64,000 nucleotides of DNA from positions 6,523,229 to 6,587,228 of the forward strand of contig OY848921.1 in NCBI GenBank assembly GCA_963693285.1, in the 5' to 3' direction. Made by a program: the position numbers and the translations under genes. Below, piece by piece: positions 11,031 to 62,800 of this stretch (within the stretch, counting starts at the first letter, position 1; every line of letters starts with the position of its first letter). The stretch comes from Xestospongia muta (taxonomy: Eukaryota > Porifera > Demospongiae > Haplosclerida > Petrosiidae). The notes under the pieces were generated by a model that was given only the letters and a program-made list of their open reading frames with translations, made no database searches and had not been told where the DNA came from.

Positions 11031-13379
11031 TTTATAACAAGACACACTTACAATATACAATTTATGTCCTAAGTTTATATGGACTCCTGTTATATTAACA
11101 ATGTGCAATTTATCAGTTTATATTAAGGTAATTGTTAATAGCCATTAGGTATGATGATGTTTTATTAATTATTATTATATAAATTTTATTTTTATTTATG
11201 CAATGTCATCTAATTACTGTATTTTGAACTTTATAATGTCTTCTAATATTATACAACCAAATATTGTCCTTCACATGATAGTCATATGTTGTTTTGTCAT
11301 CATTTTTTCAAAAATATTTTTTGGTTACAAATTTAGCTGATCCAGTATCACTCACTAACTATCAATATCCAAAATAAATCTTTTAAAATGATTTGTTCTT
11401 TAGACTTTATGCTTTGAAACTATAATTGTTACAATGAAATGTTTAAGAGTTTGCACCCACCTTGAACCATGTCTACAAATTACAGAGCCGATCGAGCAAC
11501 AAATATTGAATTTTGTTGGCACATGGTAAGCAATGAATTTAATATAATTTACTACAAGCACTATGATCTTAGGTATGACTATTTAAATCTTAACATTCTC
11601 TAACTGAAATACTTCTTAGCTAGCACTATATAGCCATTATAATTATTAACTCTCCAGTCTTTAATATTACATAATTTTCAATATCAAAATGAATCTTAAG
11701 AACCTTTTATAATTATTATCTTGTTCATTATCAACAAATAAACTTTACTATTTATATGCTAGATCATCAAAACAGTCAAGTTTGGTTGTTAATATATTAT
11801 TAATAATATATTATAGCTTAGTGCTACAACTGATTGCATATTTGTCTGGGTATCACAAATAGCTATCAAAGCTGTGATGAGTTTAATTATGATAAGAACA
11901 AGCCAAAACAATAGTATGTGTATCCCCCCTTATAGATTAGAGTATATAAAGATTACATCAGATAAAGTGGTTCACAGATAGCTACAATACATATCATAGT
12001 TGTGATGAGTTAAATTATCATAAGAACATACTACAACTATAGTATGTGTACTCTCCTCATATATAGATCAGAATATATGATGTTTATATCAGATAAAGTG
12101 GTATATATTAGTAATATAATAATATAATAAAATTTATTTAAGGCTACAGTTTATACAATTATAAAGTTTATGATTAGTCCACTACATGCTTGAATCAGAT
12201 TTTATAAAAGATATACAACAATATCCTTTATAAATATCTATAATATTTTTCACAAGTGTGATAATTGAAAGCAATATATGAAACAAAACTACATACTTTA
12301 ACCTTCAGTACATATAGCAATCAATGAATTTTATTAATGACAACTGTGAGTTTGTGACAATGGGTGTGACCAACTATGCTTGAAGCTTCTCATTATTTAC
12401 ACTATATAGCTTGCTTCTCAGCCTACATTTCTAGCTATAGTATTCCACAGGTACTTGCTAATCATACACTCCATTCAATGTTTATAAAAGTCACTTTTTT
12501 CCAAGACAATTATTTGATGTTTTTCATTGTGATCTTGTTTTGTAGCATACAGTTTAGTAATATCCCCCATTATATATGATGTTTGATGCTACTTTAATGT
12601 AATGATTACAGTACCTAAAGATAAACATCACACATGATTTCTTCTCTTGTGACAAGTATAGAATTAGTCAAATTGATACATGCGAATACAAAGATTGTCT
12701 CATAGATAAGTAAAAAGGTGAAACTAGCCAAGACAATTTGAATATATAACTAGTTTTCTATAGGCTCAAAGATGAGCATTATTAAGACTAATATTAATTA
12801 TTTTATATATAAAAATCAATTTTATCTTAGAAGTACATATCATTGACTTCATAAAGATCAATGCAAATATTTCCTACCTATTAATGACACTAGTAGAATG
12901 TAACAAATTGATAATAATAGCTCCAGTGTGATTGATGAAATAAATGTTTGCTTACTGTTAACATTATTATTATTTGTATTTACAATATACACATCATCCT
13001 TTATAACAGTTCATATGTTCAGTATTCATGTTGTTTAAATGTTCTTTATAGTCCAGTGAAGAAATATACTAACTATACATTTAATGTTGACTATGTAATA
13101 TAATATGTACAAGAATTATTATATCATGTTTTATTACTAGCAACAATGTCAATACACCTCACTAAAATAATGGTGCCATTGAACTGAAAACTTTTATTAA
13201 TATATTAGCCGTGGTATTAAGTTAAGCTAATAGTGCCATTAAATGTCTTCTTTCAATGCATAGTTTCAAATAATGTAATAGATGTTACATTGTAGTGACA
13301 TTCCTTGTTACTATGTGTCTTTCTTTCTTTTATGTTCCTGTAACGACACCCTGTATTCTCATTGCATAACAATTTATAG
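11031..13379. other. Intergenic; deleted SPT4 locus and upstream flank of a decayed Roco gene
   Basis: The region is homologous to the downstream flanks of the other kinase genes, but the SPT4 exons found there are missing (see the relic at 11448-11505). From about 12960 the sequence resembles the 5' flank of the intact Roc-COR-Death genes (28310-28470, 51470-51650). At the position of their ATG exon (around 13130-13160) the coding sequence is not preserved. Confidence 0.55.
11448..11505 (-). pseudogene. Relic of the SPT4 promoter/5' flank
   Basis: The segment GAGTTTGCACCCACCTTGAA and its continuation match the sequence just upstream of the SPT4 start codons (near 25845 and 49440). Directly to its left, the sequence around 11417-11440 matches the 3' flank of the SPT4 genes (near 24640). 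The whole coding region between these points is gone, so module 1 has lost SPT4 by a deletion of roughly 1.2 kb. Confidence 0.65.
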
Positions 13380-16343
13380 AAAGTAAGTATGTATAATGGC
13401 AATTCATGAGATCTTGTTTACATTTTATTCTGATTGTGTATTTTTTAATAATGTTTTTATAATAATAAAGTTATTAACTGTAATTGATAGTCCTTGTTAC
13501 TGTGTCATTATTTTTTTATGTTCTGTAATGACAAACTATAATCTAAATCTGACAACTACTTATAGCCAGTCAGTATGTACAATATTAATTCATGTGAACA
13601 CATTTATGTTTTATCTTGATTGTGTAGTTGTTTAAAATAATTCAAATTATTAGGTTTTAATGACAATCCATGTTACTATGTGTCTTTCTTTTTTTTATGT
13701 TCCTGTGGTAAAATCTATGCATATTCTCATTGTCATATTAACTATTTATAGAGAGTAAGTATGCACAATGTCAATTCTTATGATCAAAGTTAGTAGACTT
13801 TTATGTCAGTCCTTGTTACTATGTGTCTTTCTTTCTTAAGTTATATAAATTACTTAAAATTTACAGAGTACTTAAATTAACTTGTTGTTTATTTTTATAT
13901 CAACTATTAACCTGCTGATATCAAATGTACATATACATGTATAGAAGGAAGATGAAAGAGGTAAAGTATTTATGTATTACTTAATATAACATTATAATGC
14001 TACAAGAGATAACAATACAATTTTGTCAATCATTAGCTCTACCAAGTTATCGTCTTCAAGCTACTCCACTACATATCACTTTTAGCACAAAATTTGTACC
14101 TCCTGGTTTCTTCACACGTCTCATTACCTCTCTTGCCAGTAATTCATTTTGTGAGCTGATGTTTAAATTTACTATATCGCAATTGTGTCACTTTTGTTTA
14201 TCACAAATCAGATGATTACATCACACTCACTGATCTCCACTTTGCCATACAAGTTGATGTATTACGATATACTCCAGCTAGCTTGAACATTCCATCCTTT
14301 GATATAATATGTCAAGAGCTATTGAGTGTTCTTAAAAGTTGTGGAGATCTCATTGAACAAACTCTTACAGGTCATTGGGGAATGATGAATGAAGCCACTC
14401 AATCTGTCTCTATGGAGAAGGAATTTCAATTGTATGTGATCAAAAGAATGTGATCAATCTGAGGTTCATTACTTCAATATATCAGTAGACAAGTCTTCCA
14501 TTCACTGTGAAAAGAGTATGTATAGATCATATCGTAGACCTACTGCTGAGGAAAGAGTCTGGATTGATAAATGGAACATATCGAAAGAGGTACAGTTCAG
14601 GAGAGTTCATTGTAATGTCTCAATGTATTCTTTATAGGGAATATCTCTTGAATCATCATCACCTCCTATAACCATGGTGTCTAGTGCTACTGGTCAAATC
14701 TGTCAGCAGGAGTCTCTTGAAAGTAAAATAGGTAAGTCAGTCTATGCATGTTAACTTTTATGTATCCATTATAACTTATGATAAATACATGTACATGATC
14801 AGATTAATGTTTTGTGGTCTTAATTAGATTGAACATGTGTATAGTCATTAAATAATCCTGCCAATATTACACAATGTATAAGCTCAGATCTATACTTATA
14901 TATATATTGTATTTATTGTAGATATTTCTGACATTTTGTCAAAGGTTCCTATTTTTAAAGATGTTCTCTCTTTGCTCATTCCTATTATGGATCAGTGGTA
15001 TACTATTGGTTGTGCTTTAGCCATCAATCCTAGCAAGCTTGATAGTTTAGAACAAAGGCCTAAAGCAGTTAAAGTAAAGCTCTCTAAAGTCATCACATTT
15101 TGACAGATAGAAAAAGCTAATGCAGCTACATGGAAAGAGCTACTTGAGGCAGTTGAAGGTAAAATTGTAGATAACCATCAAGTTGGTGAGGATATTCATC
15201 AGTTTTTGACAAACCAAGTATACTTCAAAGAAGGTATGTTATTTGAAGTAATGCCATTGAGTTTCAACAAAATTTTAGTTATTGTATATGATTTTCAAAG
15301 CTACCAAATAAAATTAATCCATATGAAGTAACTGCCAGTTCATATTGTAATCAATGAATATAATTACTGCTACTGTGAGCATCAAAATAATCTAAGGATG
15401 TTTTTAATGATCGTTATCTTGTTTCACCTATATATCTATACAGAGTTTAGCAAGGTGTGTTAGCATAATCATTCAGGTTAATAATAAAATTAATACATTT
15501 TGTCTTCTTTAGGCTTAGGAAACAGTCATTAATTTTATAGTATGTAGTATAACAATCTTATAACAGTACTTTTTAATTATTTTGTTAAGAAGATAATAGT
15601 TCCGAAAGTTAGCATAAGTAAGTGTAAGCAATAATTTAAATGATACAAAATGGTTAGTCATGTTGATGGATAAAAGGATGAAGATATATAAGAGGAAAGG
15701 AGTTGCCACAAAAACCTATTTCCTATAAATAACTAGTAATGATGCTTTCAGCTTCACTTGAGTCCCATCATACTTTAGCTATCATCAAAAGAACATGAGT
15801 AAGGTAAACATTTTTGTAAGCATAGGATACATTGAGTTTTATATTTACAATACTAAAACAAGTAAAATACAATATTGTACTTTGTTATTTTAATAGTGAA
15901 AAAAATGTTTTACTCTACAGCAAGAGATCAAAAGTAACAATTCTTAGCACATAATTATCATACAGGATACCTCATATTTAGCTAAGCAAATAAATGTTGT
16001 GTATAACATTTTATTTAATAATAACATTGTTCCTTTTATCCAAAAAATTATTATTTCTATCTTTGAAATATGCACTCAAAAAAGTGAGTGTTTGTTAAAG
16101 CCTATAGACTAGAAGATTGATATAAGTAAAATGATTTGCAAAAGATAATATGTAGTGTATTATCTTTATACAGTGCAAATTTCCAGCACATTGATGTATA
16201 TGCATTGCTAAATTATTTTGGGAACACCCATTAGCCCCATATTTCTATAACCTAGTTATATCCTTTGTCTGTATCCTTCCATTTTATAGATTCTCTAGAA
16301 AAAGGAGTTGTTCATTCAAAATTCATTGACACTTCGAAAACAA
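13380..16343 (+). pseudogene. Decayed Roc-COR-Death gene with three one-codon cassettes
   Basis: Remnants in order: three array units with central triplets AAA (13380-13382), CCA (13566-13568, donor GTCAGT) and AGA (13752-13754); a 16-nt linker exon (13945-13960); a COR C-terminal fragment from about 14035 to 14589; the following exon 14638-14731; a Death exon 14922-15233; and an acidic linker exon 16290-16343. The Roc domain and the first half of COR are deleted, because the intron after the linker exon joins directly into the middle of COR. The COR fragment has two small frame-shifting deletions and the Death domain has TGA where others have a Trp codon (around 15100). The recognisable ATG exon is absent. 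This gene is dead but informative as a third, older version of the array. Confidence 0.85.
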
Positions 16344-28475: not shown

Positions 28476-28505
28476 ATGGCTGAAAGAAATGAAAGATCAG
28501 GTTTG
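28476..28505 (+). other. Proposed first coding exon of Roco copy A
   Basis: ATG plus nine codons ([10 protein letters not shown]) followed by the donor GTAAGTC, ending in phase 0. The same exon occurs at 51653-51682 with one residue changed (Ser to Pro). It lies just upstream of the cassette array in both intact loci and is lost in the dead locus at 13.4 kb. Confidence 0.7.
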
Positions 28506-31500
28506 GTAAGTCATTCTATATATGTAACTAATGGAGAACGTTGCTACATATAATAAACAAAAACAATTAAATGTATTCAATAATATAATCTAAAAATAGT
28601 AAATGTTGTTACTATTGACTAGTTAATTTGTAATTTTTTCAATGGTGACTGAGATTATTATGACACCTATGATGGTTTAAAGCCACACCTTTGATAGCTA
28701 CTTGGAAAAAAATGTAATATAAACTTTAAATATTTAGACACTTAGTAAGTTCAATGATATTTTTAATAAGTATGTAGTAAGCTCACTTGTTATGATGTGT
28801 CTTCCTTCTTTCTTGTGTTCCTATGATGACAAACCTATACTCTCATTGTCACAACTATTTATAGGAGGTAAGTATGTACAATCTCAATTAATGTGATCTC
28901 ATTATCTTAATTGTGTATTTGTTTAAATTAATTAAAGTTATAAGGTTTTTAATTATAATCCTTGTTACTGTGTGTCTTTTTTTGTTTTTTATGTTCCTAT
29001 GATGACAAACCTATACTCTCATTGTCTCAACTATTTATAGGAGGTAAGTATGTACAATGTCAATTCATGTGATCTTAATTGCATTTAATCTTAATTGTGT
29101 AGTTATTTATATTAACTAAAGTTATTAGGTTTTAATTATAATCCTTGTTACTGTGTGTCTTTTTTTGTTTTTTATGTTCCTATGATGACAAACCTATACT
29201 CTCATTGTCTCAACTATTTATAGATAGTAAGTATGTACAATGTCAATTCATGTGATCTCATTTGCATTTTATCTTAATTATGTAATTGTTTATATTAATT
29301 AAAGTTATTAGCTTTAAAATTACAATCCTTGTTACTATGTGTCTTTCTTTGTTTTTTTATGTTCCTATGATGACAAACCTATACTCTCATTGTCACAACT
29401 ATTAATAGCTGGTAAGTATGTACAATGTCAATTCATGTGATCTTAATTGCATTTAATCTTAATTGTGTAGTTATTTATATTAACTAAAGTTATTAGGTTT
29501 TAATTATAATCCTTGTTACTGTGTGTCTTTTTTTGTTTTTTATGTTCCTATGATGACAAACCTATACTCTCATTGTCTCAACTATTTATAGATAGTAAGT
29601 ATGTACAATGTCAATTCATGTGATCTCATTTGCATTTTATCTTAATTATGTAATTGTTTATATTAATTAAAGTTATTAGCTTTAAAATTACAATCCTTGT
29701 TACTATGTGTCTTTCTTTGTTTTTTATGTTCCTATGATGACAAACCTATACTTTCATTGTCACAACTATTTATAGCGGGTAAATATGTACAATGTCAATT
29801 CATGTGATCTCATGTACATTTTATTTTGAGTGTGTAGTTGTTTATATTTAATTAAAGTTATTAGGTTTTTATTTACAAGCCTTGTTACTATGAGTTATTC
29901 TTTGTTTTTTATGTTCCTATGATGACAAACCTATACTCTCATTGTCACAACTATTTAAAGTTTGTAAGTATGTACAATGTCAATTCATGTGATCTCATTT
30001 GCATTTTATCTTAATTGTGTAATTGTTTATATTAATTAAATTATCAGGTTTTAATTACAATCCTTTTTACTATGTGTCTTTTTTTGTTTTTTATGTTCCT
30101 ATGATGACAAACCTATACTCTCATTGTCACAACTATTTATAGTGGGTAAGTATGTACAATGTCAATTCATGTGATCTCATTTATATTTTATCTTAATTGT
30201 GTAATTGTTTATATTAATTAAGTTATTAGGTTTTAATTACAATCCTTTTTACTATGTGTCTTTTTTTGTTTTTTATGTTCCTATGATGACAAACCTATAC
30301 TCTCATTGTCACAACTATTTATAGGGAGTAAGTATGTACAATGTCAATTCATGTGATCTCATTTATATTTTATCTTAATTGTGTAATTGTTTATATTAAT
30401 TAAGTTATTAGGTTTTAATTACAATCCATTTTACTATGTGTCTTTCTTTATTTTTTATGTTCCTATGATGACCAACCTATACTCTCATTGTCACAACTAT
30501 TTATAGCCGGTAAGTATGTACAATGTCAATTCATGTGATGTCATTTGCATTTTATCTTAATTGTGTAATTGTTTATATTAATTAAAGTTATCAGGTTTTA
30601 ATTATAATCCTTTTTACTATGTGTCTTTCTTTGTTTTTTATGTTCCTATGATGACAAACCTATACTCTCATTGTCACAACTATTTATAGCCGGTAAGTAT
30701 GTACAATGTCAATTCATGTGATCTCATTTGAATTTTATCTTAATTATATAATTGTTTATATTAATTAAAGTTATTAGGTTTTAATTATAATCCTTTTTAC
30801 TATGTGTCTTTCTTTTTTTTTTATGTTCCTATGATGACAAACCTATACTTTCATTGTCACAACTATTTATAGCGGGTAAATATGTACAATGTCAATTCAT
30901 GTGATCTCATGTACATTTTATTTTGAGTGTGTAGTTGTTTATATTTAATTAAAGTTATTAGGTTTTTATTTACAAGCCTTGTTACTATGAGTTATTCTTT
31001 GTTTTTTATGTTCCTATGATGACAAACCTATACTCTCATTGTCACAACTATTTAAAGTTTGTAAGTATGTACAATGTCAATTCATGTGATCTCATGTACA
31101 TTTTATTTTGAGTGTGTAGTTGTTTATATTTAATTAAAGTTATTAGGTTTTTATTTACAAGCCTTGTTACTATGAGTTATTCTTTGTTTTTTATGTTCCT
31201 ATGATGACAAACCTATACTCTCATTGTCACAACTATTTAAAGTTTGTAAGTGTGTACAATGTCAATTCATGTGATCTCATTTGCATTTTATCTTAATTGT
31301 GTAATTGTTTATATTAATTAAATTATCAGGTTTTAATTACAATCCTTTTTACTATGTGTCTTTTTTTGTTTTTTATGTTCCTATGATGACAAACCTATAC
31401 TCTAATTGTCACAACTATTTATAGGGAGTAAGTATGTACAATGTCAATTCATGTGATGTCATTTGCATTTTATCTTAATTGTGTAATTGTTTATATTAAT

Positions 31501-34140
31501 TAAAGTTATCAGGTTTTAATTATAATCCTTTTTACTATGTGTCTTTCTTTGTTTTTTATGTTCCTTTGATGACAAACCTATACTCTCATTGTCACAACTA
31601 TTTATAGGAGGTAAGTATGTACAATGTCAATTCATGTGATGTCATTTGCATTTTATCTTAATTGTTTAGTTGTTTGTATTAATTAAAGTTATTAGGTTTT
31701 AATTACAAACTTTGTTACTATGTGTCTTTCTTTATTTTTTATGTTCCTATCATGACAAACCTATACTCTCATTGTCACAACTATTTATAGGAGGTAAGTA
31801 TGTACAATGTCAATTCATGTGATGTCATTTGCATTTTATCTTAATTGTTTAGTTGTTTGTATTAATTAAAGTTATTAGGTTTTTATTTACAAGCCTTGTT
31901 ACTATGAGTTATTCTTTGTTTTTTATGTTCCTATGATGACAAACCTATACTCTCATTGTCACAACTATTTAAAGTTTGTAAGTATGTACAATGTCAATTC
32001 ATGTGATCTCATGTACATTTTATTTTGAGTGTGTAGTTGTTTATATTTAATTAAAGTTATTAGGTTTTTATTTACAAGCCTTGTTACTATGAGTTATTCT
32101 TTGTTTTTTATGTTCCTATGATGACAAACCTATACTCTCATTGTCACAACTATTTAAAGTTTGTAAGTGTGTACAATGTCAATTCATGTGATCTCATTTG
32201 CATTTTATCTTAATTGTGTAATTGTTTATATTAATTAAATTATCAGGTTTTAATTACAATCCTTTTTACTATGTGTCTTTTTTTGTTTTTTATGTTCCTA
32301 TGATGACAAACCTATACTCTAATTGTCACAACTATTTATAGGGAGTAAGTATGTACAATGTCAATTCATGTGATGTCATTTGCATTTTATCTTAATTGTG
32401 TAATTGTTTATATTAATTAAAGTTATCAGGTTTTAATTATAATCCTTTTTACTATGTGTCTTTCTTTGTTTTTTATGTTCCTTTGATGACAAACCTATAC
32501 TCTCATTGTCACAACTATTTATAGGAGGTAAGTATGTACAATGTCAATTCATGTGATGTCATTTGCATTTTATCTTAATTGTTTAGTTGTTTGTATTAAT
32601 TAAAGTTATTAGGTTTTAATTACAAACTTTGTTACTATGTGTCTTTCTTTATTTTTTATGTTCCTATCATGACAAACCTATACTCTCATTGTCACAACTA
32701 TTTATAGGAGGTAAGTATGTACAATGTCAATGAACTAAGTTACTGGGAATATTGTTAATACTCATTGTTCTTAGTCTGGGCAGGCATTACAGTACTTGCT
32801 TTGTGTATATGTGTGTTTCTGTCTGTTAACAGACAGTGTACTCTGAAGTGCTTACCAAAGATGTTGTCTAAAATTTGCAAAATTTGCAGTTTAGTACTAT
32901 AAATTATTTCTAGCTAAATGGCTGCCAAAAAAAGCTTGAAAGTTAGTGACCTTTTAAAAAAATCACAGGCAAGATTGAAGATTTGATCACTACAATAATT
33001 TACTAATAAGATGTGACAATTTTCATAGAAATGCTTTATTTTGAAGTTATTGGGCCAAAGAAACAGCCACTTGCAAACACACAACTGTTAGTGACACACC
33101 TGTAAAATTAAACAGTTGGCAGTCCTATGGTTTTTATTACCATATACCACATCTATTAATTTCTATTTAGTAAGTTCTCAGGTAATGGTAGTATGACCAA
33201 CTAAAATCATTCAGCATAATTTAGCCACTACTACAGCAAGTGTTCTGTACTTTAGTGCTTTTTTCTTTGTCAATTATTGAACTAAGCTTTGCTTATGTCT
33301 TTTATATTTTTATTTAAAAATACCTTTCTGACCATTTGATGATAATGTGTTCTTATCAGTTATTTACAAATTTACAGGATACTTAAATTGATTTGTTGTT
33401 TATTTTTTATGTCAATGATTTACCTGTTGATTTCAAATGGAACATATACATGTATAGAGGGATGATGAAAGAGGTAAAGTATTTATGTATTACTTAATAT
33501 AACATTATAGTGCTAGGTGATATAACAATACAACACAAACTAATTCTATACTGTTGTCAGATCACTTCTCAAGTCATTTTTGTAAAATATTTGAAGAAAC
33601 CATACCTTAACTGTTTTATATGATGTACAGACAAATTAAAGACACTTCATAAGGTTATTAAGAAGTGTCAAACTATATAGGTAATTTTTATTGCAGTTTA
33701 TATTTCTGTGATCATCTCACAATGCTCAAAGAATAAATGACATGACTAATCAACATTATACCATGGCATTCAAAAGATCAGAGTTTAGCCACCCAAGTAG
33801 AAGTTGCATTTTTTGAGTTTATTTAAATTAACTACAGCTACACATGTAGTGTTTCTGTTCTGTTACAGCTATTTTTGAAGAGAAAGCTTAACACAGGGAG
33901 TAGTATAGTTTTGGTAAACAGAACAATTGTAAAAATCACATCCCACATACTTTCAATTATTGAGACCAGTTCAAAACTTTTAAACAGAACTGGTAGAAAT
34001 ATTATATGAAAGTATCAATTGTGATATCATTGCAGTATTTAGAAAGACAGCAATATCATAAAAACTATTTTTCTTCTGAAAAATGGATTTTTTTATTTTC
34101 AATATGGTTTATATAACATTGACTGTGTTTTATATACATA

Positions 34141-34291: not shown

Positions 34292-37200
34292 TACACAAAG
34301 AAACTATCCATCAATGTCATTCTTAGCAATGTATATCAAACCCCATATAACTGTATATATTCAATATGACTACATCATTTAACTGCTTACTAAATACTGA
34401 GTACTGAAAGAAGTTATATGTGTTAATAAAACAATAGCAACTATCATCCTGACTATAGGAGATACTATTGCTCCCAGTATAGTTATAAAAAAGTAACTTA
34501 TATTAATGAAATGATGTTGCTTCAAGTATACCTCTATGGAATTATCATTGTTTACCTAAAACTGAATCTTACTATATAGTTAAAATATAAAATCATCACC
34601 AAGATTGCTGTATCATCATTCTTGTGTGTTGTATTGTGTAACTAGTCCTATTAATATCTGTTAGTTTGGTCTCAAACTATTCAACCTTTAGTGGAAAATA
34701 CCACATTGACCTATTGAGTGTTCATAATATTGTATGATGAAAATTAAACTACTTGACCATAATCACTGTGAATATCCCTAGTCAAGTTTCAACAGTTACA
34801 AATTCTACCATTTTATTAACTATCCAGGTATATGCTTTGAAGCACAATTGATCATATCCATATTATAGTTGGTTAATACCATATTAATTGTAACAACTGT
34901 CATGACTTTTAATGTTAACTGAAGTGTAGTTACTATTGTAGTATTTCTCAGAAACACAATGGTTTAGTAAATGTATATTGAATTTTAATTTGTCACGGTA
35001 CATACAAAACTACCCTCTAAATAGATATATTAGATCAGGATAATATTTTATGATATTAATAATCATTTTTTAATTTTATCTGATAGATGCCTATAAGAGA
35101 GCTCTAGCACAGGGAGAAATGGATGTAGCATATGGACGTGTTATGTTACTTGGTTCAGCTGGAGTAGGGAAAAGTAGCTTAAAGCGATCATTGATGAAGT
35201 TACCATGGCAACCTCACGCTACCAGCACCATTATATCTGATGTTACATGTGTTCGACCATTTGGACATGAATGGTATTCTATGAGCTTGGAAGATACTGA
35301 TGACAAATGGAGAGAAGTAACCTTTGAAGACGAGATAGAAGAAATGGCACAACTACTTGCTATAGTATATAAAGATCGTTCCAGTCCCAGATCTGTGCTC
35401 AATACAGTGGCAGCCTCAGCACTCTACCCTATAGCTGCTATGATGAGGGCTTCATCCTTATCTTCACAACTAGTTCAAGATATAGAGACCACCAAAGTTA
35501 ATGAAATTCTTTCAAAAGCTATAGCTCGTTCTGAGCATATATCCAGAGGTGATCTTAGCAGTATTAAACCTCAGCCATTTTTACACATCTGGGATTGTGG
35601 TGGTCAGCCTGTTTTTCTTGAAATCCTCCCTGCCTTCCTTACTTCTCGTACATTGTTCCTCCTCTTGTTTGATGCCTCTAAGGATTTCAATGAAAGATGG
35701 CAGTCTATACAGAATATTGAGGGGAGACAAATTTTTGGTGAGGAGGTAAACATCAGCACACTTGACCTGATGCTCAACTGGATGGCTAACATTCATGGTC
35801 ACCTCGTTTGTCGTGATAAAGAAGGCGGTCTTTGTGAGTACCCTCGTATGTACTGCATTGGTACACATGGTGATGTCTTAAAGACCAACGAGAAGAAGAA
35901 AGCAGTTGTAGATGAGCTGGAGTCCAACTACAAAGATAAAGCATTTATGGAACTTGTTAAAGAAACTTTGATTATCGACAACACCACTTCTGGTAAAGGA
36001 AAACATGAAGATCCAAATCTCATTAAGCTACGTAGAGCTATTTGTCACTTCACATATGAAAAGCTCATTGTCAAGACTCCAGTTAGCTGGGTTCTCTTTC
36101 GCAAAATAATCCAAATGTTTGAAAAGAATGTAATCGATCTTAAAGAAGCTCATGCTATTGGAGTAGCTTGTAAAATACCTCATGATGATGTTCCAAAGGT
36201 CCTCCTATTTTATCATGATCTAGGAGTAGTGCTGTTCTATCCCCATATTACTGGTTTGAGAAACAAAGTTATCATTAATCCCAAATGGTTTGTGGAAACA
36301 CTTGGGAAAGTGTTGACACTAGATGGACAAGCTGATGGACAAACAAGACTAATGTGGACATTACTACAGGAAAAAGGCATTCTAGTACAACCATTTTATG
36401 TGTCTCTTTGGAAAGAATGTAGAGCAGACCTTAGTCCAGAAGATATAATTGAAATTTTAGTTCATTTTCGCCTTGCTGCTAAAGTCACTACTAAAGAATA
36501 TTATGATCAAACAGTCAAGCAGTATTTTTTGCCAGCCACACTTCCAACTTTCAAAGGAGATCCCAATAAAGCTCTACCAAGTTATCGTCGTCAATCTACC
36601 CCACTACATATCACTTTTAGGACCAAATTTGTACCTCCTGGTTTCTTCACACGTTTAGTTACCTCTCTGGCTAGTAATCCATCTTGTGAGCTTATGTTTG
36701 AATGTGGTATATATCGCAATCGTGTCACTTTTGTATATCACAAATCAGATGATTACATCACACTCACTGATCTCCACTATGCCATACAAGTTGATGTATT
36801 ACGATGTGCTCCAGCTAGCTTGGACATTCCATCCTTTGAAACAATATGTCAAGAGCTATTAAGTGTTCTTAAAAGTTGTGGAAATTGCGTTGAAAAAACT
36901 CTTACAAGTCATTGGGGAATGATGAATGAATCCACTCAATCTGTCTCTATGGAGATGGAATTTGAATATCTATGTAGATCAAAAGAATGTAATCAATCTG
37001 AGGTTCATTACTTCAATATATCAGTAGACAAGTCTTCCATTCACTGTGAAAAGGGTATGTATAGATCATATCGTAGACCTACTGCTGAGGAAAGAGTCTG
37101 GTTTGATGGATGGAACATACCAGAAGAGGTACAGTTCATGAGACATCATTATAATGTCTCGATATATTCTTTATAGACAGTGTCTCTTGAATCATCATCA

Positions 37201-37754
37201 CCTCCTGTAACCATGGTGTCAAGTGCTACAGGTCAAATTTGTCAGCAAGTGTCTCTTGAAAGTGAAATAGGTAAGTCGGATCATTGTGTATATGAATTGT
37301 TACGTAACTTGTGATAATTACATGTACATAATGTTTTGTGGCCTTTGTTATTTTGAACATGTGTATAGTCATCATAACTGGTTGGTTTATTCCTCTTACA
37401 TAGTGAATACATATTGTATTTATTGTAGATATTTCTAGTATTCTATCAAAAGTTCCTACTGCTAAAGATGCCCTCTCATTACTCATTCCTATTATGAATC
37501 AGTGGTATATCATTGGTGGTGCACTAGATATTAATCCTGGTAAGCTCAACAGTTTAGATCAAAGCTTGGATCCAGTCAAGACAAAGCTTTTCAAAGTCAT
37601 CACATATTGGCTGGACGAAAAAGCTAGGGCAGCCACTTGGAGAGAACTCCTTGAAGCAGTTGAAGGTGACATTGTGGAAAGTTGTCAAACTGGTGAGAAT
37701 ATTCGTGAATTTCTAAGAAAACCAGATATATACACAAAATATTCTGGTCAATGA
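28476..37754 (+). CDS. Roc-COR GTPase with C-terminal Death domain and an array of one-codon exons, copy A
   Basis: Proposed exons: 28476-28505 (ATG, 10 codons, ends phase 0); 22 three-nucleotide cassettes within 28865-32710; 33458-33473 (16 nt); 35087-37128; 37177-37270; 37429-37754. Without cassettes the total is 2508 nt (835 residues plus stop), exactly in frame, and each cassette adds one codon. From Met35119 the Roc domain shows the P-loop GSAGVGKSS, a DCGGQP switch-II motif and GTHGD as the guanine-specificity motif. COR follows ([35 protein letters not shown]). The last exon encodes a Death domain ([31 protein letters not shown]). Roco proteins are GTP-dependent dimer switches, and Death domains recruit partners, so this is probably a signalling hub. 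The 48-nt intron 37129-37176 is open in frame and ends in TAG, so retaining it would give a form without the Death domain. The main exon is certain; the 5' exons are inferred. Confidence 0.85.
28865..32710 (+). repeat. Tandem array of 22 units, each holding a 3-nt cassette between splice sites (copy A)
   Basis: Units of about 183 bp (176-185) each carry a pyrimidine-rich tract with TATGTTCCTATGATGAC, then CTATTTATAG, three variable bases, then GTAAGTATGTACAATG. Triplet starts and codons: 28865 GAG, 29041 GAG, 29224 ATA, 29409 CTG, 29592 ATA, 29776 CGG, 29961 TTT, 30143 TGG, 30325 GGA, 30507 CCG, 30690 CCG; then 30873 CGG, 31058 TTT, 31243 TTT, 31425 GGA, 31608 GAG, 31791 GAG, 31975 TTT, 32160 TTT, 32342 GGA, 32525 GAG, 32708 GAG. 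Acceptors are TATAG except AAAG in the five TTT units; donors are GTAAGT except GTAAAT in the two CGG units. Units 13-17 and 18-22 are copies at a 917-bp offset, and units 6-7 recur as 12-13 at 1097 bp. The flanks are nearly constant while the triplet takes eight values. I infer that each triplet is a one-codon exon; the alternative is an intronic satellite. Confidence 0.85.
32711..35086 (+). other. Introns around the 16-nt linker exon of Roco copy A
   Basis: Non-coding except for the linker exon at 33458-33473 (acceptor ATGTATAG, donor GTAAAG), which encodes RDDER plus the first base of the next Asp codon. The same exon is at 59103-59118 (RDNKR) and 13945-13960 (KEDER). It starts in phase 0 and ends in phase 1, matching the Roc exon at 35087. 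The remainder is AT-rich and closely similar to 58410-60771. Confidence 0.65.
34130..34291. repeat. Microsatellite (TA)n, (CATG)n, (TG)n
   Basis: A long TA run, short ATGC tetranucleotide repeats, a TG run and another TA run lie in the intron before the Roc exon. An equivalent tract is at 59790-59912. Confidence 0.95.
37129..37176 (+). promoter_or_regulatory. 48-nt intron that is open in frame and ends in a stop (possible retained-intron switch)
   Basis: GTACAG...TTATAG: the length is a multiple of three, the frame stays open, and the 3' splice-site TAG is itself the stop. Retention gives the tail [15 protein letters not shown] and no Death domain; splicing joins to the exon at 37177 and on to the Death exon. 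The same arrangement is at 62814-62861, and the frame is also open in both pseudogenes. Confidence 0.55.
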
Positions 37755-38089: not shown

Positions 38090-38143
38090 CTTAGTAATCT
38101 CCTGTTACAGTTTACTAGTATTTAGCTCGTACATCTAGTAACA

Positions 38144-51652: not shown

Positions 51653-54600
51653 ATGGCTGAAAGAAATGAAAGACCAGGTTTGGTAAGTCATTCTATATAT
51701 GTAACTAATTGGGAACGTTGCTACATCAAATAAAGAAAAACAATTAAATGTATTCAATAATATAATCTAAAAATAGTAAATGTTGTTGCTATTGACTAGT
51801 TAATTTATATGGTAACTGAGATTATTACGACACCTATCATGGTTTAAAGCCAAACCTTTGATATCTACTTGGAAAAAACCTGATATAAACTTTAAATATT
51901 TAAACACTTGATAGTTATTCAAAAGTATTTTTAATAAATATACAGTAAACTCACTTGTTATGATACGTCTTTTTTTATGTTCCTATGATGACAAACCTAT
52001 ACTCTCATTGTCACAACTATTTATAGCTGGTAAGTATGTACAATGTCAATTCATGTGATCTTATTTGCATTTTATCTTAATTGAGTAGTTGTTTATATCA
52101 ATTAACGTTATTAGGTTTTAATTACAATCCTCGTTACTATGTGTTCTTCTTTCTTTTTTATGTTCTTATGATGACAAACCTACACTCTCATTGTCACAAC
52201 TATATATAGTGGGTAAGTATGTACAATGTCAATTCATGTGATCTCATTTGCATTTTATCTTAATTGAGTAGTTGTTTATATTAATTAACGTTATTAGGTT
52301 TTAATTACAATCCTCGTTACTATGTGTTTTTCTTTCTTTTTTATGTTCCTATGATGACAAACCTCCACTCTCATTGTCACAACTATTTATAGCTGGTAAG
52401 TATGAACAATGTCAATTCATGTGATCTTATTTGCATTTTATCTTAATTGAGTAGTTGTTTATATCAATTAACGTTATTAGGTTTTAATTACAATCCTCGT
52501 TACTATGTGTTCTTCTTTCTTTTTTATGTTCTTATGATGACAAACCTATACTCTCATTGTCACAACTATATATAGTGGGTAAGTATGTACAATGTCAATT
52601 CATATGATCTCATTTGCATTTTATCTTAATTGAGTAGTTGTTTATATCAATTAACGTTATTAGGTTTTAATTACAATCCTCGTTACTATGTGTTTTTCTT
52701 TCTTTTTTATGTTCCTATGATGACAAACCTCCACTCTCATTGTCACAATTATTTATAGCGGGTAAGTATGTACAATGTCAATTCATATGATCTCATTTGC
52801 ATTTTATCTTAATTGAGTAGTTGTTTATATCAATTAACGTTATTAGGTTTTAATTACAATCCTTGTTACTATGTGTTTTTCTTTCTTTTTTATGTTCTTA
52901 TGATGACAAACCTATACTCTTATTGTCACAACTATTTATAGATTGTAAGTGTGTACAATGTCAATTTATGTGATCTCATTTGCTTTTTATCTTAATTGAG
53001 TAGTTGTTTATATTAATTATAGTTATTAGGTTTTAATTACATTCTTTGTTACTATGTGTCTTTCTTTTATTTATGTTCCTATGATGACAAACCTATACTC
53101 TCATTGTCACAACTATTTATAGGTGGTAAGTATGTACAATGTCAATTCATGTGATCTTATTTGCATTTTATCTTAATTGAGTAGTTGTTTATATTAATTA
53201 TGTATTTGTTTAAATTATTTATAGTTATTAGGTTTTAATTACAATCCTCATTACTATGTGTTCTTCTTTCTTTTTTATGTTCTTATGATGGCAAACATAT
53301 ACTCTCATTGTCACAACTATTTATAGGAGGTAAGTATGTACAATGTCAATTCATGTGATCTCATTTGCATTTTATCTTAATTGAGTAGTTGTTTATATCA
53401 ATTAACGTTATTAGGTTTTAATTACAATCCTTGTTACTATGTGTTTTTCTTTCTTTTTTATGTTCTTATGATGACAAACCTATACTCTTATTGTCACAAC
53501 TATTTATAGTCGTTAAGTATGTACAATGTCAATTTATGTGATCTCATTTGCTTTTTATCTTAATTGAGTAGTTGTTTATATTAATTATAGTTATTAGGTT
53601 TTAATTACATTCTTTGTTACTATGTGTCTTTCTTTTATTTATGTTCTTATGATGACAAACCTATACTCTCATTGTCACAACTATTTATAGGTGGTAAGTA
53701 TGTACAATGTCAATTTATGTGATCTCATTTGCATTTTATCTTAATTGTTTAGTTGTTTATATTAATTAAATTATTAGGTTTTAATTACATTCTTTGTTAC
53801 TATGTGTCTTTCTTTGTTTTTATGTTTCTATGATGACAAACCTATACTCTCATTGTCACAACTATTTTAGTATGTAAGTATGTACAATGTCAATTCATGT
53901 GATCTCATTTGCATTTTATTAACCTCGCTGTGCGTAGGCGCAAAGCGAGGGTACTGTAGTCTATTTGTGTGTGTGTGTGTGTGTGTTTGCACTGCCTGTT
54001 ACATTTGAACTACTATAACTTGGCAAGCGATGCCTTAGCAGCTACCAACGTTTAGCAATGAATAGAAAAACATGTGGACTTTACAACAGTAGTATCAAGA
54101 ACATCGTCAGGGAAAACGAAAGCTTAAAAGTGGCAAAAGAATTTTCAGGCATCATAGTCAAAGTGCCGTTTCTTGAAAAGTAAAAAACTTAATGTAGAGA
54201 TTTTTTAGTATGCTGTAGAGAATCTTAGAGGAATACGGATCAGCAAAACAGAAGGCCATTGGTCGAAGCAATCATTAGAAAACTTCTGAAAAGTGTTTTG
54301 TGGACTCAGAGCAAAGTAACGCATTCAGGAAACATCTCAAAGCACTGGAGAAACTGCTACTAATAGATAATATATTGATTTATATTTGTACTATGGGACG
54401 TTTCCAAAGAATGCTTCATTTTCAAGTTACAATAAATTTTGTATATGAAATACTGAAACGTTTTAAGGCATCATTTAAAGGCTCAGAGAAACTTTCATCA
54501 CGAATCTAGCACTTAATCTTGCTTGGCAATTGAATGATACTATTACTTACTCAGTTACAGCTTCACAGACATGTCAATCAGAGTGCAAAGTACCCAATAA

Positions 54601-57600
54601 ATGACAAAGCTTTTTTCCCTTTGATTAAAGAGAAATGCTGAGTCATCAAACAACAGTTTGTAATGTGCATCAAGTGATCCATCAATATTTGACCACACCT
54701 TGTTTCATTTTTGTGATGCTACCTAGTAACATCATAGCTGGGCCTAAGCTGGCATAGCATTTACAAATAACTTAGAAACTGTAGCGAGGTTCGGCACTTT
54801 AGTGCCTTTCATCTTAATTGTGTAGTTGTTTATATCAATTAACGTTTTTAGGTTTTAATTACAATCCTTGTTACTATGTGTCTTTCTTTGTTTTTATGTT
54901 CCTATGATGACAAACCTATGCTCTCATTGTCACAACTATTTATAGCCGGTAAGTATGTACAATGTCAATTCATGTGATCTTATTTGCATTTTATCTTAAT
55001 TGAGTAGTTGTTTATATTAATTATGTATTTGTTTAAATTATTTATAGTTATTAGGTTTTAATTACAATCCTCATTACTATGTGTTCTTCTTTCTTTTTTA
55101 TGTTCTTATGATGACAAACCTATACTCTCATTGTCACAACTATTTATAGCATGTAAGTATGTACAATGTCAATTCATGTGATATCATTTGCATTTTATCT
55201 TAATTGTGTAGTTGTATATATTAATTATAATTATTAGGTTTTAAGTACATTCTTTGTTACTATGTGTCTTTCTTTGTTTTTTATGTTCTTATGATGGCAA
55301 ACATATACTCTCATTGTCACAACTATTTATAGGAGGTAAGTATGTACAATGTCAATTCATGTGATCTCATTTGCATTTTATCTTAATTGAGTAGTTGTTT
55401 ATATCAATTAACGTTATTAGGTTTTAATTACAATCCTTGTTACTATGTGTTTTTCTTTCTTTTTTATGTTCTTATGATGACAAACCTATACTCTTATTGT
55501 CACAACTATTTATAGTCGGTAAGTATGTACAATGTCAATTTATGTGATCTCATTTGCTTTTTATCTTAATTGAGTAGTTGTTTATATTAATTATAGTTAT
55601 TAGGTTTTAATTACATTCTTTGTTACTATGTGTCTTTCTTTTATTTATGTTCCTATGATGACAAACCTATACTCTCATTGTCACAACTATTTATAGGTGG
55701 TAAGTATGTACAATGTCAATTTATGTGATCTCATTTGCATTTTATCTTAATTGTTTAGTTGTTTATATTAATTAAATTATTAGGTTTTAATTACATTCTT
55801 TGTTACTATGTGTCTTTCTTTGTTTTTATGTTTCTATGATGACAAACCTATACTCTCATTGTCACAACTATTTTAGTATGTAAGTATGTACAATGTCAAT
55901 TCATGTGATCTCATTTGCATTTTATTAACCTCGCTGTGCGTAGGCGCAAAGCGAGGGTACTGTAGTCTATTTGTGTGTGTGTGTGTGTGTGTTTGCACTG
56001 CCTGTTACATTTGAACTACTATAACTTGGCAAGCGATGCCTTAGCAGCTACCAACGTTTAGCAATGAATAGAAAAACATGTGGACTTTACAACAGTAGTA
56101 TCAAGAACATCGTCAGGGAAAACGAAAGCTTAAAAGTGGCAAAAGAATTTTCAGGCATCATAGTCAAAGTGCCGTTTCTTGAAAAGTAAAAAACTTAATG
56201 TAGAGATTTTTTAGTATGCTGTAGAGAATCTTAGAGGAATACGGATCAGCAAAACAGAAGGCCATTGGTCGAAGCAATCATTAGAAAACTTCTGAAAAGT
56301 GTTTTGTGGACTCAGAGCAAAGTAACGCATTCAGGAAACATCTCAAAGCACTGGAGAAACTGCTACTAATAGATAATATATTGATTTATATTTGTACTAT
56401 GGGACGTTTCCAAAGAATGCTTCATTTTCAAGTTACAATAAATTTTGTATATGAAATACTGAAACGTTTTAAGGCATCATTTAAAGGCTCAGAGAAACTT
56501 TCATCACGAATCTAGCACTTAATCTTGCTTGGCAATTGAATGATACTATTACTTACTCAGTTACAGCTTCACAGACATGTCAATCAGAGTGCAAAGTACC
56601 CAATAAATGACAAAGCTTTTTTCCCTTTGATTAAAGAGAAATGCTGAGTCATCAAACAACAGTTTGTAATGTGCATCAAGTGATCCATCAATATTTGACC
56701 ACACCTTGTTTCATTTTTGTGATGCTACCTAGTAACATCATAGCTGGGCCTAAGCTGGCATAGCATTTACAAATAACTTAGAAACTGTAGCGAGGTTCGG
56801 CACTTTAGTGCCTTTCATCTTAATTGTGTAGTTGTTTATATCAATTAACGTTTTTAGGTTTTAATTACAATCCTTGTTACTATGTGTCTTTCTTTGTTTT
56901 TATGTTCCTATGATGACAAACCTATGCTCTCATTGTCACAACTATTTATAGCCGGTAAGTATGTACAATGTCAATTCATGTGATCTCATTTGCATTTTAT
57001 CTTAATTGTTTAGTTGTTTATATTAATTAAGTTATTAGGTTTTAATTACAATCCTTGTTACTATGTGTCTTTCTTTGTTTTTATGTTACTATGATGACAA
57101 ACCTATACTCTCATTGTCACAACTATTTATAGACTGTAAGTATGTACAATGTCAATTCATGTGATCTCATTTGCATTTTATTAACCTCGCTTTGCATGAG
57201 CGCAAAGCGAGGGTACTGTAGTCTGTCTGTCTGTCTGTCTGTGTGTCTGCACTGCCTGTTATCTTTGAACTACTATAACTTGGCAAGCGAAGCCTTAGCA
57301 GCTACCAACGTTTAGCAATGAATAGAAAAACATATGGACTTTACAACAGTAGTATCAAGAACATCGTCAAGGAAAACGAAAGCTTAAAACTGGCAAAAGA
57401 ATTTTCAGGCATCATAGTCAAAGTGCCTGTTTCTCGAAAAGTAAAAAACTTAATGTGGAGATTTTTTAGTATGCTGTAGAGAATCTTAGAGGAATATGGA
57501 TCAGCAAAACAGAAGGCCATTGGTCAAAGCAATCGTTAGAAAACTTCTGAAAAGTGTTTTGTGGACTTAGAGCAAAGTAACGCATTCAGGAAACATCTCA

Positions 57601-59826
57601 AAGCACTGAAGAAACTGCTACTAATAGATAATATATTGATTTATTTTTGTACTATGGGACGTTTCCAAAGAATGCTTTGTTTTCAAGTTACAATAATTTT
57701 TCTATATGAAATATTGAAATTTTTTAAAGCGTCATGTAAAGGCTCAGAGAAACGTCCATCACGAATCTAGCCTTAATCTTGCTTGGCAATTGAAAGATAC
57801 TATTACTTACTCAGTTACAGCTTCACAGACATGTCAATCAGAGTGCAAAGTACCCAGTAAACGACAAAGCTTTTTTCCCTTTGATTGAAGAGAAATGCTG
57901 AGTCATCAAACAACAGTTTGTAATGTGCATCAAGTGATCCCATCAATATTTGACCACACCTTGTTTCATTTTTGTGATGCTACCTAGTACATCATAGCTG
58001 GGCCTAAGCTGGCATAGCATTTACAAATAACTTAGAAACTGTAGCGAGGTTCGGCACTTTAGTGCCTTTCATCTTAATTGTGTAGTGGTTTATATTCAAT
58101 TAAAGTTATTAGGTTTTAATTACAATCCTTGTTACTATGTGTCTTTCTTTGTTTTTTATGTTCTTATGATGGCAAACATATACTCTCATTGTTACAACTA
58201 TTTATAGGTGGTAAGTATGTACAATGTCAATTCATGTGATCGCATTTGCATTATATCTTAATTATGTATTTGTTTAAATTAATTAAAGTTATTAGGTTTT
58301 AATTACAGTCCTTGTTACTATATGTCTTTGTTTGTTATGTTCTTATGACAACAAACCTATACTCTTATTCTCTTATTGTTACAACTATTTATAGGAGGTG
58401 AGTATGTACAATGTCAATAAACTAAGTTACTAGGAATATTGTTAATAGTCATTGCTCTTAGTCTAGGCAGGGATTACAGTACTTGCTTTGTGTGTTTCTG
58501 TCTGTTAACAGACAGTGTACTCTGAAGTGCTTGCCAAAGATATTATCTAAAGCTGCAAAATTTGGGAAGGAGATAAGGTTTAGCACTATAAATTATTTCT
58601 AGCTAACTGGCTTTCAACAAGATGGAAGATTTGATCACTACAGTAATTTACTAATAAGATGTGGATATTTTCATAGAAATGCTTTATTTTGAAGTTATTG
58701 AGTCAAAAAAACGTCATTTGCAAACACACAACTGTTATAACACACCTGTAAAATTAAACAGTTGGCAGTCCTATGGTTTTTATCACCATATACCACATCC
58801 ATTAATTTCTATTTAGTAAGTTCTCAGGTAGTGGTAGTATGACCAACTAAAATCATTCAGTATAATTTAGCCACTACTACAGCAAATGTTCTGTACTTTA
58901 GTGCTTTTTTCTTTGTCAATTATTGAACTAAGCTTTGTTTATGTCTTTTATATTTTTATTTAAAAACATCTTTCTGACCATTTGATGATAATATGTTCTT
59001 ATCAGTTATTTACAAATTTACAGGATACTTAATTGATTTGTTGTTTATTTTTTATGTCAATGATTTACCTGCTGATATCAAATGGAACATATACATATAT
59101 AGAGGGATAATAAAAGAGGTAAAGTATTTATGTATTACTTAATATAACATTATAGTGCTAGGAGATATAACAATATAACAAACTAATTCTATACTATTGT
59201 CAAATCACTTCTCAAGTCATTTTTGTAAAATGTTTGAAGAAACCATACCTTAACTGTTTTATATGATGTACAGACAAATTAAAGACACTTCATGAGGTTA
59301 TTAAGAAGTGTCAAACTATATAGGTAATTTTTATTGCAGTTTAAATTTCTGTGATCATATCTCACAATGCTCAAAGAATAAATGACATGACAAATCAACA
59401 ATATACCATGGTGTTAAAAAGAGTTCAGCCACCCAAGTAGAAGTTGCATTATTTGAGTTTATTTGAATTAACTACAGCTACACATGTAGTGTTTCTGTGC
59501 TGTTACAGCTATTTTTGAAGAGAAAGCTAAACACAGGGAGTGGTATAGTTTTGGCAAACAGAACAAATGTAAAAATCACATCCCACATACTTTCAATTAT
59601 TGAGACCAGTTCAAAACTTTAAAACAGAACTGGTAGGGACATTATATGAAAGTATCGATTGTGATATCATTGCAGTATTTAGAATGACAGCAATATCATA
59701 AAAATATTTTTCTTCTGAAATACGGAATTGTTTTTTATTTTCAATATGGTTTATATAACATTGATTTGTGCTTTATATAATATATACATCCATGCATGCA
59801 TACATACATATATATGTACATATATG

Positions 59827-59890
<64 letters not shown>

Positions 59891-62800
59891 TACGTATATA
59901 TACATATATATAAGTAGCAATAAAGTATTGTCAAGCCTTGAGATGAGGCAATTAATCATGAGTTACTATCCATAACATCATAAGAAACTATCCGTCAATG
60001 TCATTCTTAGCAATGTATACCAAACCCCACATAACTACATATATTCAATATGACTACATCATTTAACTGGCTACTGAATACTGAGTATTGAAAGTTGTAT
60101 GTGTTAATAAAACAATAACAACTATCATCCTGACTATAGGGGATACTATTGCTCCCAGTATAGTTATAATAAAGCAACTTATATTAATGAAATGATGTTG
60201 CTTCAAGTATACCTCTATGGAATTATCGTTGTTTACTCAATACTGAATTTTATTATATAGTTGAAGTATAAAATCATTATCAACAAGATTGTTGTATCAT
60301 CATTCTTGTATGTTGTATTGTGTAACTAATCCTAAAAATATCTGTTAGTTTAGTCTCAAACTATTCAGCCTTCAGTGGAAAATACCACATTGATCTATTG
60401 AGTGTTCATAATATTGTATGATAAAAATTAAATTACTTCACCATAATCACTGTGAATATCCCTAGTCAAGTTTCAACAGTTACAAATTCTACCATTTTAT
60501 TAACTATCCAGGTATATGCTTTGAAGCATAATTGATCATATCCATATTATAGTTGGTTAATACCATATTGATTGTAACAGCTGTCATGACTTTAAATGTT
60601 AACTGAAGAGTAGTTACTATTGTAGCATTTCTCAGAAACACAATGGTTTAGTAAATGTATATTGAATTTTAATTTGTCACGGTACATATAGAACTATTCT
60701 CTAAATAGATATATTAAATTAGGATAATATTTTATGATATTAATAATCATTGTTTAATTTTTATCTGATAGATGCCTATAAGAGAGCTCTAGCAGAGGGA
60801 GAAATGGATGTAGCATATGGACGTGTTATGTTACTTGGTTCAGCTGGAGTAGGGAAAAGTAGCTTAAAGCGATCATTGATGAAGTTACCATGGCAACCTC
60901 ACACTACCAGCACCATCATATCTGATGTCAGTTGTGTTCGACCATTTGGACACGAGTGGTATGCTATGAACCTGGAAGATACTGATGACAAATGGAGAGA
61001 AGTAACCTTTGAAGACGAAATAGAAGAAATGGCACAACTACTTGCTATAGTATATAAAGATCATTCCAGTCCCAGATCTGTGCTCAATACAGTGGCAGCT
61101 TCAGCACTCTACCCTGTAGCTGCTATGATGAGGGCTTCATCCTTATCTTCACAACTAGTTCAAAATATAGAGACCACTAAAGTCGAGGAAATTCTTTCAA
61201 AAGCTATAGCTCGTTCTGAGCATATATCCAGAGGTGATCTTAGCAATATTAAACCTCAGCCATTTTTGCACATCTGGGATTGTGGTGGTCAGCCTGTTTT
61301 TCTTGAAATCCTCCCTGCCTTCCTGACTCCTCGTACATTGTTCCTCCTCCTGTTTGATGCCTCTAAGGATTTCAATGAAAGGTGGCAGTCTATACAGAAT
61401 ATTGAGGGGAGGCAAATTTTTGGTGAGGAAGTAAACATCACCACACTTGACCTGATGCTCAACTGGATGGCTAACATTCATGGTCACCTCATTTGTCGTG
61501 ACAAAGAAGGCGGTCTTTGTGAATACCCTCGTATGTACTGCATTGGTACACATGGTGATGTCTTAAAGACCAATGAGAAGAAGAAAGCAGTTGTAGATGA
61601 GCTGGAGTCCAATTACAAAGATAAAGCATTTATGGAACTTGTTAAAGAAACTTTGATTATCGACAACACCACTTCTGGTAAAGGAAAACGTGAAGATCCA
61701 AATCTCATTAAGCTACGTAGAGCTATTTGTCAGTTCACATATGAAAAGCTCATTGTCAAGACTCCAGTTAGCTGGGTTCTCTTTCGCAAAATAATCCAAA
61801 TGTTTGAAAAGAATGTAATCGATCTTAAAGAAGCTCACGCTATTGGAGTAGCTTGTAAAATACCTCATGATGATGTTCCAAAGGTCCTCCTGTTTTATCA
61901 TGATCTAGGAGTAGTGCTGTTCTATCCCCACATTACTGGTTTGAGAAACAAAGTTATCATTAATCCCAAATGGTTTGTGGAAACACTTGGGAAAGTGTTG
62001 ACACTAGATGGACAAGCTGATGGACAAACAAGACTAATGTGGACATTACTACAGGAAAAAGGCATTCTAGTACAACCATTTTATGTGTCTCTTTGGAAAG
62101 AATGTAGGGCAGACCTTAGTCCAGAAAATATAATTGAAATTTTAGTTCATTTTCGCCTTGCTGCTAAAGTCACTACTAAAGAATATTATGATCGAACAGT
62201 CAAGCAGTATTTTTTGCCAGCCACACTTCCAACTTTCAAAGGAGATCCCAACAAAGCTCTACCAAGTTATCGTCTTCAATCTACCCCACTACATATCACT
62301 TTTAGGACAAAATTTGTACCTCCTGGTTTCTTCACACGTTTTGTTACCTCTCTGGCTAGTAATCCATCTTGTGAGCTTATGTTTAAATGTGGTATATATC
62401 GCAATCGTGTCACTTTTGTATATCACAAATCAGATGATCATATCACACTCACTGATCTCCACTATGCTATACAAGTTGATGTATTACGATGTGCTCCAGC
62501 TAGCTTGGACATTCCATCCTTTGATATAATATGTCAAGAGCTATTGAGTGTTCTTAAAAGTTGTGGAAATCGCGTTGAACAAACTCTTACAGGTCATTGG
62601 GGAATGATGAATGAGTCCACTCAATCTGTCTCTATGGAAATGGAATTTGAATATCTATGTAGATCAAAAGAATGCGATCAATCTGAGGTTCATTACTTCA
62701 ATATATCAGTAGACAAGTCTTCCATTTACTGTGAAAAGGGTATGTATAGATCATATCATAGACCTACTGCTGAGGAAAGAGTCTGGTTTGATGGATGGAA

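Follow-up and report, generated by a model that had tools for sequence, protein, structure and literature searches.

Tandem arrays of predicted one-codon exons precede Roc-COR genes in the sponge Xestospongia muta

What could a gene make of a tandem repeat in which every unit offers a splice acceptor, three bases and a splice donor? The question is raised by a stretch of 64,000 nucleotides from the sponge Xestospongia muta (the window, C5:6523229-6587228, C5 being one of the 28 contigs of the 158-Mb genome searched), in which a Roc-COR gene carries an array of 22 such units between its predicted first coding exon and a predicted 16-nt exon (Table 1). We consider it likely that the array consists of true one-codon exons, which would be joined in order to an N-terminal peptide of the Roc-COR protein.

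The initial annotation had described 22 units of about 183 bp at this place, and this was borne out by reading of the DNA, by the unit listing and by Tandem Repeats Finder, which reported 21.6 copies of 183 bp with 92% matches at 28786-32731. The first codon lies at 28865-28867 and the last at 32708-32710. The annotation had also given each unit an intact acceptor, exactly three bases and a donor, and all 22 units do have AG, then exactly 3 nt, then GT, the acceptors reading TTTATAG, TTAATAG or TTTAAAG and the donors GTAAGT or GTAAAT. The codons and residues that we read are identical to those claimed: in order, GAG GAG ATA CTG ATA CGG TTT TGG GGA CCG CCG in units 1-11 and CGG TTT TTT GGA GAG GAG TTT TTT GGA GAG GAG in units 12-22, translating to E E I L I R F W G P P R F F G E E F F G E E. 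Since the predicted 30-nt exon in front ends, and the 16-nt exon behind starts, at a codon boundary, each unit would be one whole codon. The motif TAG-NNN-GTAAGT occurs 36 times on the forward strand of the window and 0 times on the reverse strand; 34 of these sites are within this array and a second one downstream, and two are outside the arrays, at 13377 and 13749.

As for the gene itself, named Roc-COR-Death in the initial annotation, the first two domains stood, with PF08477 (Roc) and PF16095 (COR-A) above the Pfam curated cut-offs in both Roc genes of the window. The last exon gave no match in Pfam at E<=1, and a C-terminal Death domain is weakly suggested by a resemblance (37% over 59 aa) to the Amphimedon protein P0098, whose UniRef name begins 'Death domain-'. 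Three relatives came with an organism name among the 120 listed protein matches of the Roc exon, all of them from Amphimedon queenslandica.

The array is one of a family. In a cluster of 324 kb (200 kb and 60 kb fetched around the window plus the 64-kb window), 477 of 492 fuzzy anchor matches are intact units with AG, exactly 3 nt and GT; several of the 15 rejected matches are no units and at least one good unit was missed (window 58395). A looser parse, now superseded, had accepted 324 of 329 anchor matches, with 306 lengths of 3 nt, nine of 0, three of 7, three of 11, one of 16 and two of 40; its 0-nt cases were GTG codons misread, and the 7s and 11s were units with altered donors. The intact units group into 12 main arrays, each with 19 to 60 of them, and two remnants that retain 3 and 2; one 16-nt exon lies behind each of these 14. 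A full-length Roc-COR exon follows 11 of the 12 main arrays (one of the 11 with an in-frame TAA), and both remnants accompany broken Roc genes. Genome-wide, the unit motif with its 32 fixed bases and up to two mismatches matched 757 times on the forward strand and 0 times on the reverse (control 0/0), all on C5 among the matches listed (first 100). A chance origin of the unit arrays is excluded. In a collection of viral contigs, the one pattern searched found no exact unit.

The absence of stops, the exact 3-nt length, a variable codon within constrained splice sites, compensation at the donor and a distant paralogue with the same layout argue strongly that the units are one-codon exons, as the initial annotation had proposed. 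None of the 477 intact units carries a stop codon. When the three positions were shuffled independently, a mean of 20 stops was expected and 0 of 5000 shuffles reached zero, and the outcome was the same after merging of same-codon units with introns less than 5% apart (245 units, mean 11.4 stops, 0/5000). For the 151 distinct array-codon pairs a mean of 5.9 stops was expected against none found (P=0.0006). The exact motif TTTATAG-NNN-GTAAGTATGTAC is present 510 times on one strand of the genome and 0 times on the other, 0 times with TAA or TAG as the codon and 0 times with TGA. Having 4-14 nt in place of the three bases between TTTATAG and GTAAGTATGTAC gave 0 sites genome-wide and 0-2 nt gave one, on C10; exactly three bases are thus found in 510 of the 511 exact-flank sites holding 0-14 nt, counts which include the locally read units and are no independent sample. 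Between them the 477 units encode 19 amino acids, cysteine being the one missing; its absence has a shuffle P of 0.049, extends to the exact flanks genome-wide (0 sites) and is not significant at reduced redundancy (P about 0.21).

Diversity over the 477 units was 0.73, 0.74 and 0.37 at codon bases 1, 2 and 3, the first two being the most diverse of the 120 listed positions and near the maximum of 0.75, and it stayed at or below 0.08 across the first six donor bases (+1 to +6) and the last eight acceptor bases (-8 to -1), the invariance of AG and GT being no evidence as these define an intact unit. A perfect GTAAGT is found in 103 of the 106 units without G at position -1, compared to 326 of the 371 units with it (Fisher P=0.003), and in a reduced set of 251 units the same compensation was seen (62/64 vs 154/187, P=0.003). 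Such a balance, in which a base other than G at -1 is offset on the intron side, is expected of U1 recognition at the 5' splice site, and the near-constant GTAAGT in units without the -1 G is what a used 5' splice site should display.

The same layout is found before a distant Roc paralogue on C14 with 65% protein identity. The 8 kb upstream of its Roc exon had no blastn match to the C5 sequences besides the Roc exon, and in this region there are 17 sites at which exactly three bases separate an AG from a GTAAG or GTGAG donor, within the repeated context CACACCTATTTAG-NNN-GTAAGTCTGTACTAT; the spacing is uneven, with one pair at a period of 193. None of the 17 codons is a stop and 15 of them end in A. 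By eye, the few bases beside the C14 splice sites resemble the C5 unit, and due to this resemblance a common origin of the C14 and C5 units is likely. A genome-wide search for the C14-type unit with up to three mismatches gave 50 sites (46 forward, 4 reverse; controls 0), none of them a stop when the full list was read. Of these, 27 lie at C6:835-844 kb and 16 at C14:3495-3504 kb, the latter partly overlapping the 17 sites. The C6 array stops about 7 kb short of the next COR domain on its strand (851 kb) and probably precedes a Roc gene as well. The remaining seven sites are at C1:22986333, 23123618 and 27604466, at C7:4718875 and 4724295, and at C6:1521747 and 1521941.

The possible use of such exons was addressed by comparison between arrays. 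Those at 6323 and 6387 kb were aligned on intron similarity alone, and in the first 20 paired units 17 codons are identical, 3 differ synonymously (GAA/GAG once, CCG/CCA twice) and 0 nonsynonymously, with one further TAT unit of the 6387-kb array unpaired. The introns within the block differ at 113 of 3379 positions. As 19% of single changes are synonymous for the codons of the block, three out of three would be synonymous by chance with a probability of 0.007, for a block that was picked post hoc, after seeing where the differences begin. Some arrays also read as peptide-like strings, such as EEKERKEREEREERWREREREEEERRR, which in its gene is followed by a 16-nt exon for RKLER, and RPPPRPIRPRPPPRPIP. 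Because the block keeps its residues and the strings look peptide-like, in-order inclusion of the codons is mildly favoured. The same two observations bear on another use of real one-codon exons, raised by the initial annotation, in which one or a few codons would be picked per transcript and the tails would differ between molecules or cells. Any subset would stay in frame, each unit being one phase-0 codon, and the near-identical acceptors and donors would compete with each other. However, 20 paired units with synonymous change only are expected under in-order joining, indirect as this is and drawn from a post hoc block, and the composition of whole arrays (E/R, P/R, T/W) reads, again indirectly, as continuous peptides. 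We judge such selective use to be unlikely.

Two further explanations do without codons that matter to the protein. The units could aid recursive splicing of a long intron as ratchet points, the three bases being incidental and of little protein function, and both the acceptor-donor pairs at a median spacing of 183 nt and the -1 G preference, compatible with U1 recognition, fit such a role. Ratchet sites leave zero bases in the mRNA. Here, in contrast, 510 of the 511 exact sites have three bases, free of stops, between acceptor and donor, and none of the 120 positions vary as much as codon positions 1 and 2, which makes this explanation very unlikely. The tandem, homogenised and AT-rich character of the units could likewise suggest an unspliced intronic satellite in which AG-NNN-GT arose by chance and was spread by unequal crossing over. 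This candidate was rejected as highly improbable, since the stops are missing, the length is exact, the donor compensates, the variable codon sits in constrained flanks on a single strand, the distant paralogue has the same layout with diverged introns, and arrays stand before Roc exons on C5, on C14 and probably on C6.

Several results weigh against in-order joining of one-codon exons, or against parts of it. Considered alone, the 34 distinct codons would be expected to include a mean of 1.4 stops, and their absence is not significant (P=0.19); moreover, the arrays have been homogenised by duplication and their units are not independent. One further unit on C14 has 4 nt between AG and GTAAG. 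None of the sequences of 21 relatives that were read contained a codon series, their first residues falling in the Roc domain or a short way ahead of it. When the joined N-terminus was used for a region search, the 10 matches were all among those already listed for the Roc exon, and again no codon series was found. Nor does an intact array always come with an intact gene: the twelfth main array, with 52 intact units, precedes only Roc fragments, and in the gene of another array Roc is interrupted by a stop. In the two aligned arrays, the 30 aligned units past the 20-unit block include 14 with identical codons, 16 with a nonsynonymous change and none with a synonymous one, in an alignment that gain and loss of units make unsure. 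In three other array pairs (70 units), with a mean intron difference of 3.1 to 8.4%, codons are identical in 19 units, synonymous in 1 and nonsynonymous in 50. Residues are thus kept in one block and diverse elsewhere, and neither order nor residues are conserved throughout.

If the units are spliced in order, the process would run 5' to 3', because recognition from both ends at the same time would need an exon longer than 3 nt. The same size argument has been made for the 3-nt exon of honey bee elavl2, for which sequential splicing was argued from the lack of room for spliceosomal complexes at both of its ends (PMC8553928). The growing exon would join the next acceptor, the strong GTAAGT behind the new codon would become the next donor, and each step of about 180 nt would leave one codon behind; with introns of this size and a strong donor after every codon, stepwise joining would be the natural route. 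As the phase is 0 on both sides, any number of units would preserve the frame, and duplication, loss or exchange of whole units would rewrite the peptide and leave the reading frame untouched. Each gene would thereby obtain a tail of its own, charged, proline-rich or tryptophan- or threonine-rich, with a plausible role in recognition or assembly in an immune-like GTPase. More tentatively, and with somewhat more doubt than confidence, we suggest that interchangeable one-codon exons could be a splicing-based writer of N-terminal recognition peptides, with codons as movable cassettes by which an animal GTPase family would put together long peptides one residue after another and quickly change them, perhaps providing cell-specific subsets or somatic diversity.

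Between the members of 144 reciprocal nearest unit pairs, 37 of 288 bases at codon positions 1-2 are different, compared to 412 of 24399 in the introns (odds ratio 8.6), and among within-array pairs with identical introns the codon differs in 3 of 55. Either codon exchange between units via their shared flanks or selection for change can by itself account for this excess of codon differences. Targeted hypermutation of the three bases was considered and rejected: a mutator is not needed, the 20-unit block has 3 differences in 60 exon bases compared to 3.3% in the introns, and exchange of units inside near-invariant flanks would explain the nearest-pair data equally well.

The beginning of the arrays differs between genes. 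The MAERN exon (the 30-nt first coding exon, up to 9 substitutions allowed) was found in 6 of the 12 main-array genes, the array at 6902 kb having been scanned without its 5' end. Of the six arrays without this exon, three open with ATG as the codon of their first intact unit (Table 1), so that in these a 3-nt exon may supply the start codon itself. Upstream of the arrays at 6238, 6288 and 6357 kb there is a similar stretch ending GGAAGTAAGTTG, perhaps a 5' exon with its donor.

Table 1. Features of the Roc-COR genes and their arrays (positions in the window unless preceded by C5)
Feature	Position	Strand	Remarks
Predicted first coding exon, first Roc gene, 30 nt	28476..28505	+	donor GTAAGTC; phase 0, ends at codon boundary
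Array of predicted one-codon exons, 22 units of 183 bp	28865..32710	+	DNA reading and unit listing
Predicted 16-nt exon, first Roc gene, AGGGATGATGAAAGAG	33458..33473	+	RDDER + 1 nt
Roc-COR exon, first Roc gene	35087..37176 (open-frame end)	+	acceptor TCTGATAG, phase 1; true donor probably near 37128, by eye
Predicted last exons, Death-like domain	37177..37754	+	by eye; second part from about 37429; stop TGA 37752-37754
First coding exon, second Roc gene	51653..51682	+	
Second array, 19 units counted intact	52027..58397	+	
16-nt exon, second Roc gene	59103..59118	+	RDNKR
Roc-COR exon, second Roc gene	60772..62861 (open-frame end)	+	
Remnant	13342..14634	+	two units (K, P; one donor GTCAGT), 16-nt exon, Roc fragments
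ATG-first arrays (loci L014, L018, L024)	C5:6288061, 6323872, 6387288		first intact unit is ATG

The second array of the window has, in addition to the units counted, a unit with a broken donor at 53510 (TCG|TTAAGT) and a last unit at 58395 (GAG|GTGAGT) that the parser overlooked. Its units are set apart by 1075-bp gaps at three places (53871-54946, 55877-56952 and 57133-58208), as if an insertion was copied along with its units. Protein kinase genes, with a long tail that looks like a coiled coil by eye, lie at 7691-9586, 21387-22790 and 43721-45577; along the cluster they sit between the Roc genes, roughly one per Roc gene, and in the stretches scanned they are about 89-98% identical to the first one. 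The gene that follows the first Roc gene (38134-39800) has a start resembling a signal peptide by eye and contains a 12-bp repeat at 39352-39725, one frame of which reads as Thr/Pro repeats. Elsewhere on the contig, the minus strand of C5:2.18-2.78 Mb carries five Roc-COR copies with 55-59% identity and in-frame stops within the match, four having one TAG and one TAA and the fifth a TGA in addition; these stops may be retained introns or mark a pseudogene group.

Isolated 3-nt microexons are known from honey bee elavl2 (exon 4d), Drosophila homothorax and TnT, and mouse Ncam (PMC8553928, PMC8042270, PMC7392893), and as in these, 3 nt would add one residue; those exons are single, whereas the sponge has arrays of 19-60. 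Ratchet points of Drosophila, at which a juxtaposed acceptor and donor allow stepwise removal of an intron (PMC8605326, PMC6110457), share the acceptor next to the donor, but in the sponge sites three bases lie between the two. The micro-exon genes (MEG) of schistosomes have many short exons of 3-81 bp and variable proteins (PMC10526429), and many short exons, here predicted ones, with a variable product are a likeness. In contrast to the MEG exons, which vary in length and have introns of up to 5 kb, those predicted in the sponge measure 3 nt throughout and sit in 183-bp tandem units whose introns are nearly identical, and the gene is a Roc-COR gene. The predicted array exons are in frame by sequence, but a single long Roc-COR exon encodes most of the protein. 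No signal peptide, which is a MEG feature, was seen by eye at the predicted N-terminus, which is charged and without a hydrophobic leader. A search of the open-access literature in PMC also listed the aphid bicycle genes, and among the matches listed no tandem array of one-codon exons was described for any gene; the ingredients are known singly, and their combination into a peptide with one codon per exon was not found described.

If the reading is correct, a protein stretch would be encoded one codon per exon by up to 60 exons in a row, with the shortest in-frame exon used in bulk, and it would become testable how serial splicing handles exons too short for exon definition. Peptides could evolve as codon cassettes are duplicated, lost or swapped, and the frame would never be endangered. 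Standard gene annotation and short-read alignment are expected to overlook such exons. In Dscam, the exons encode parts of Ig domains and one is chosen per array. The tandem duplicated exons of arthropod Dscam diversify an immune-related protein (PMC11378527), and tandem paralogous exons, predicted ones here, at one position of the gene are also found in the sponge. A further comparison may be made with the ROCO genes of brown algae, for whose LRR exon arrays exon shuffling, diversifying selection and alternative splicing are reported (PMC11378527). The ROC-COR family is the same and the array is likewise N-terminal to ROC, but the algal exon is 72 bp and encodes one LRR, whereas the sponge exon would encode one codon and no domain. 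The sponge arrays would then represent an animal ROCO diversity system parallel to the LRR exon arrays of the brown algal genes.

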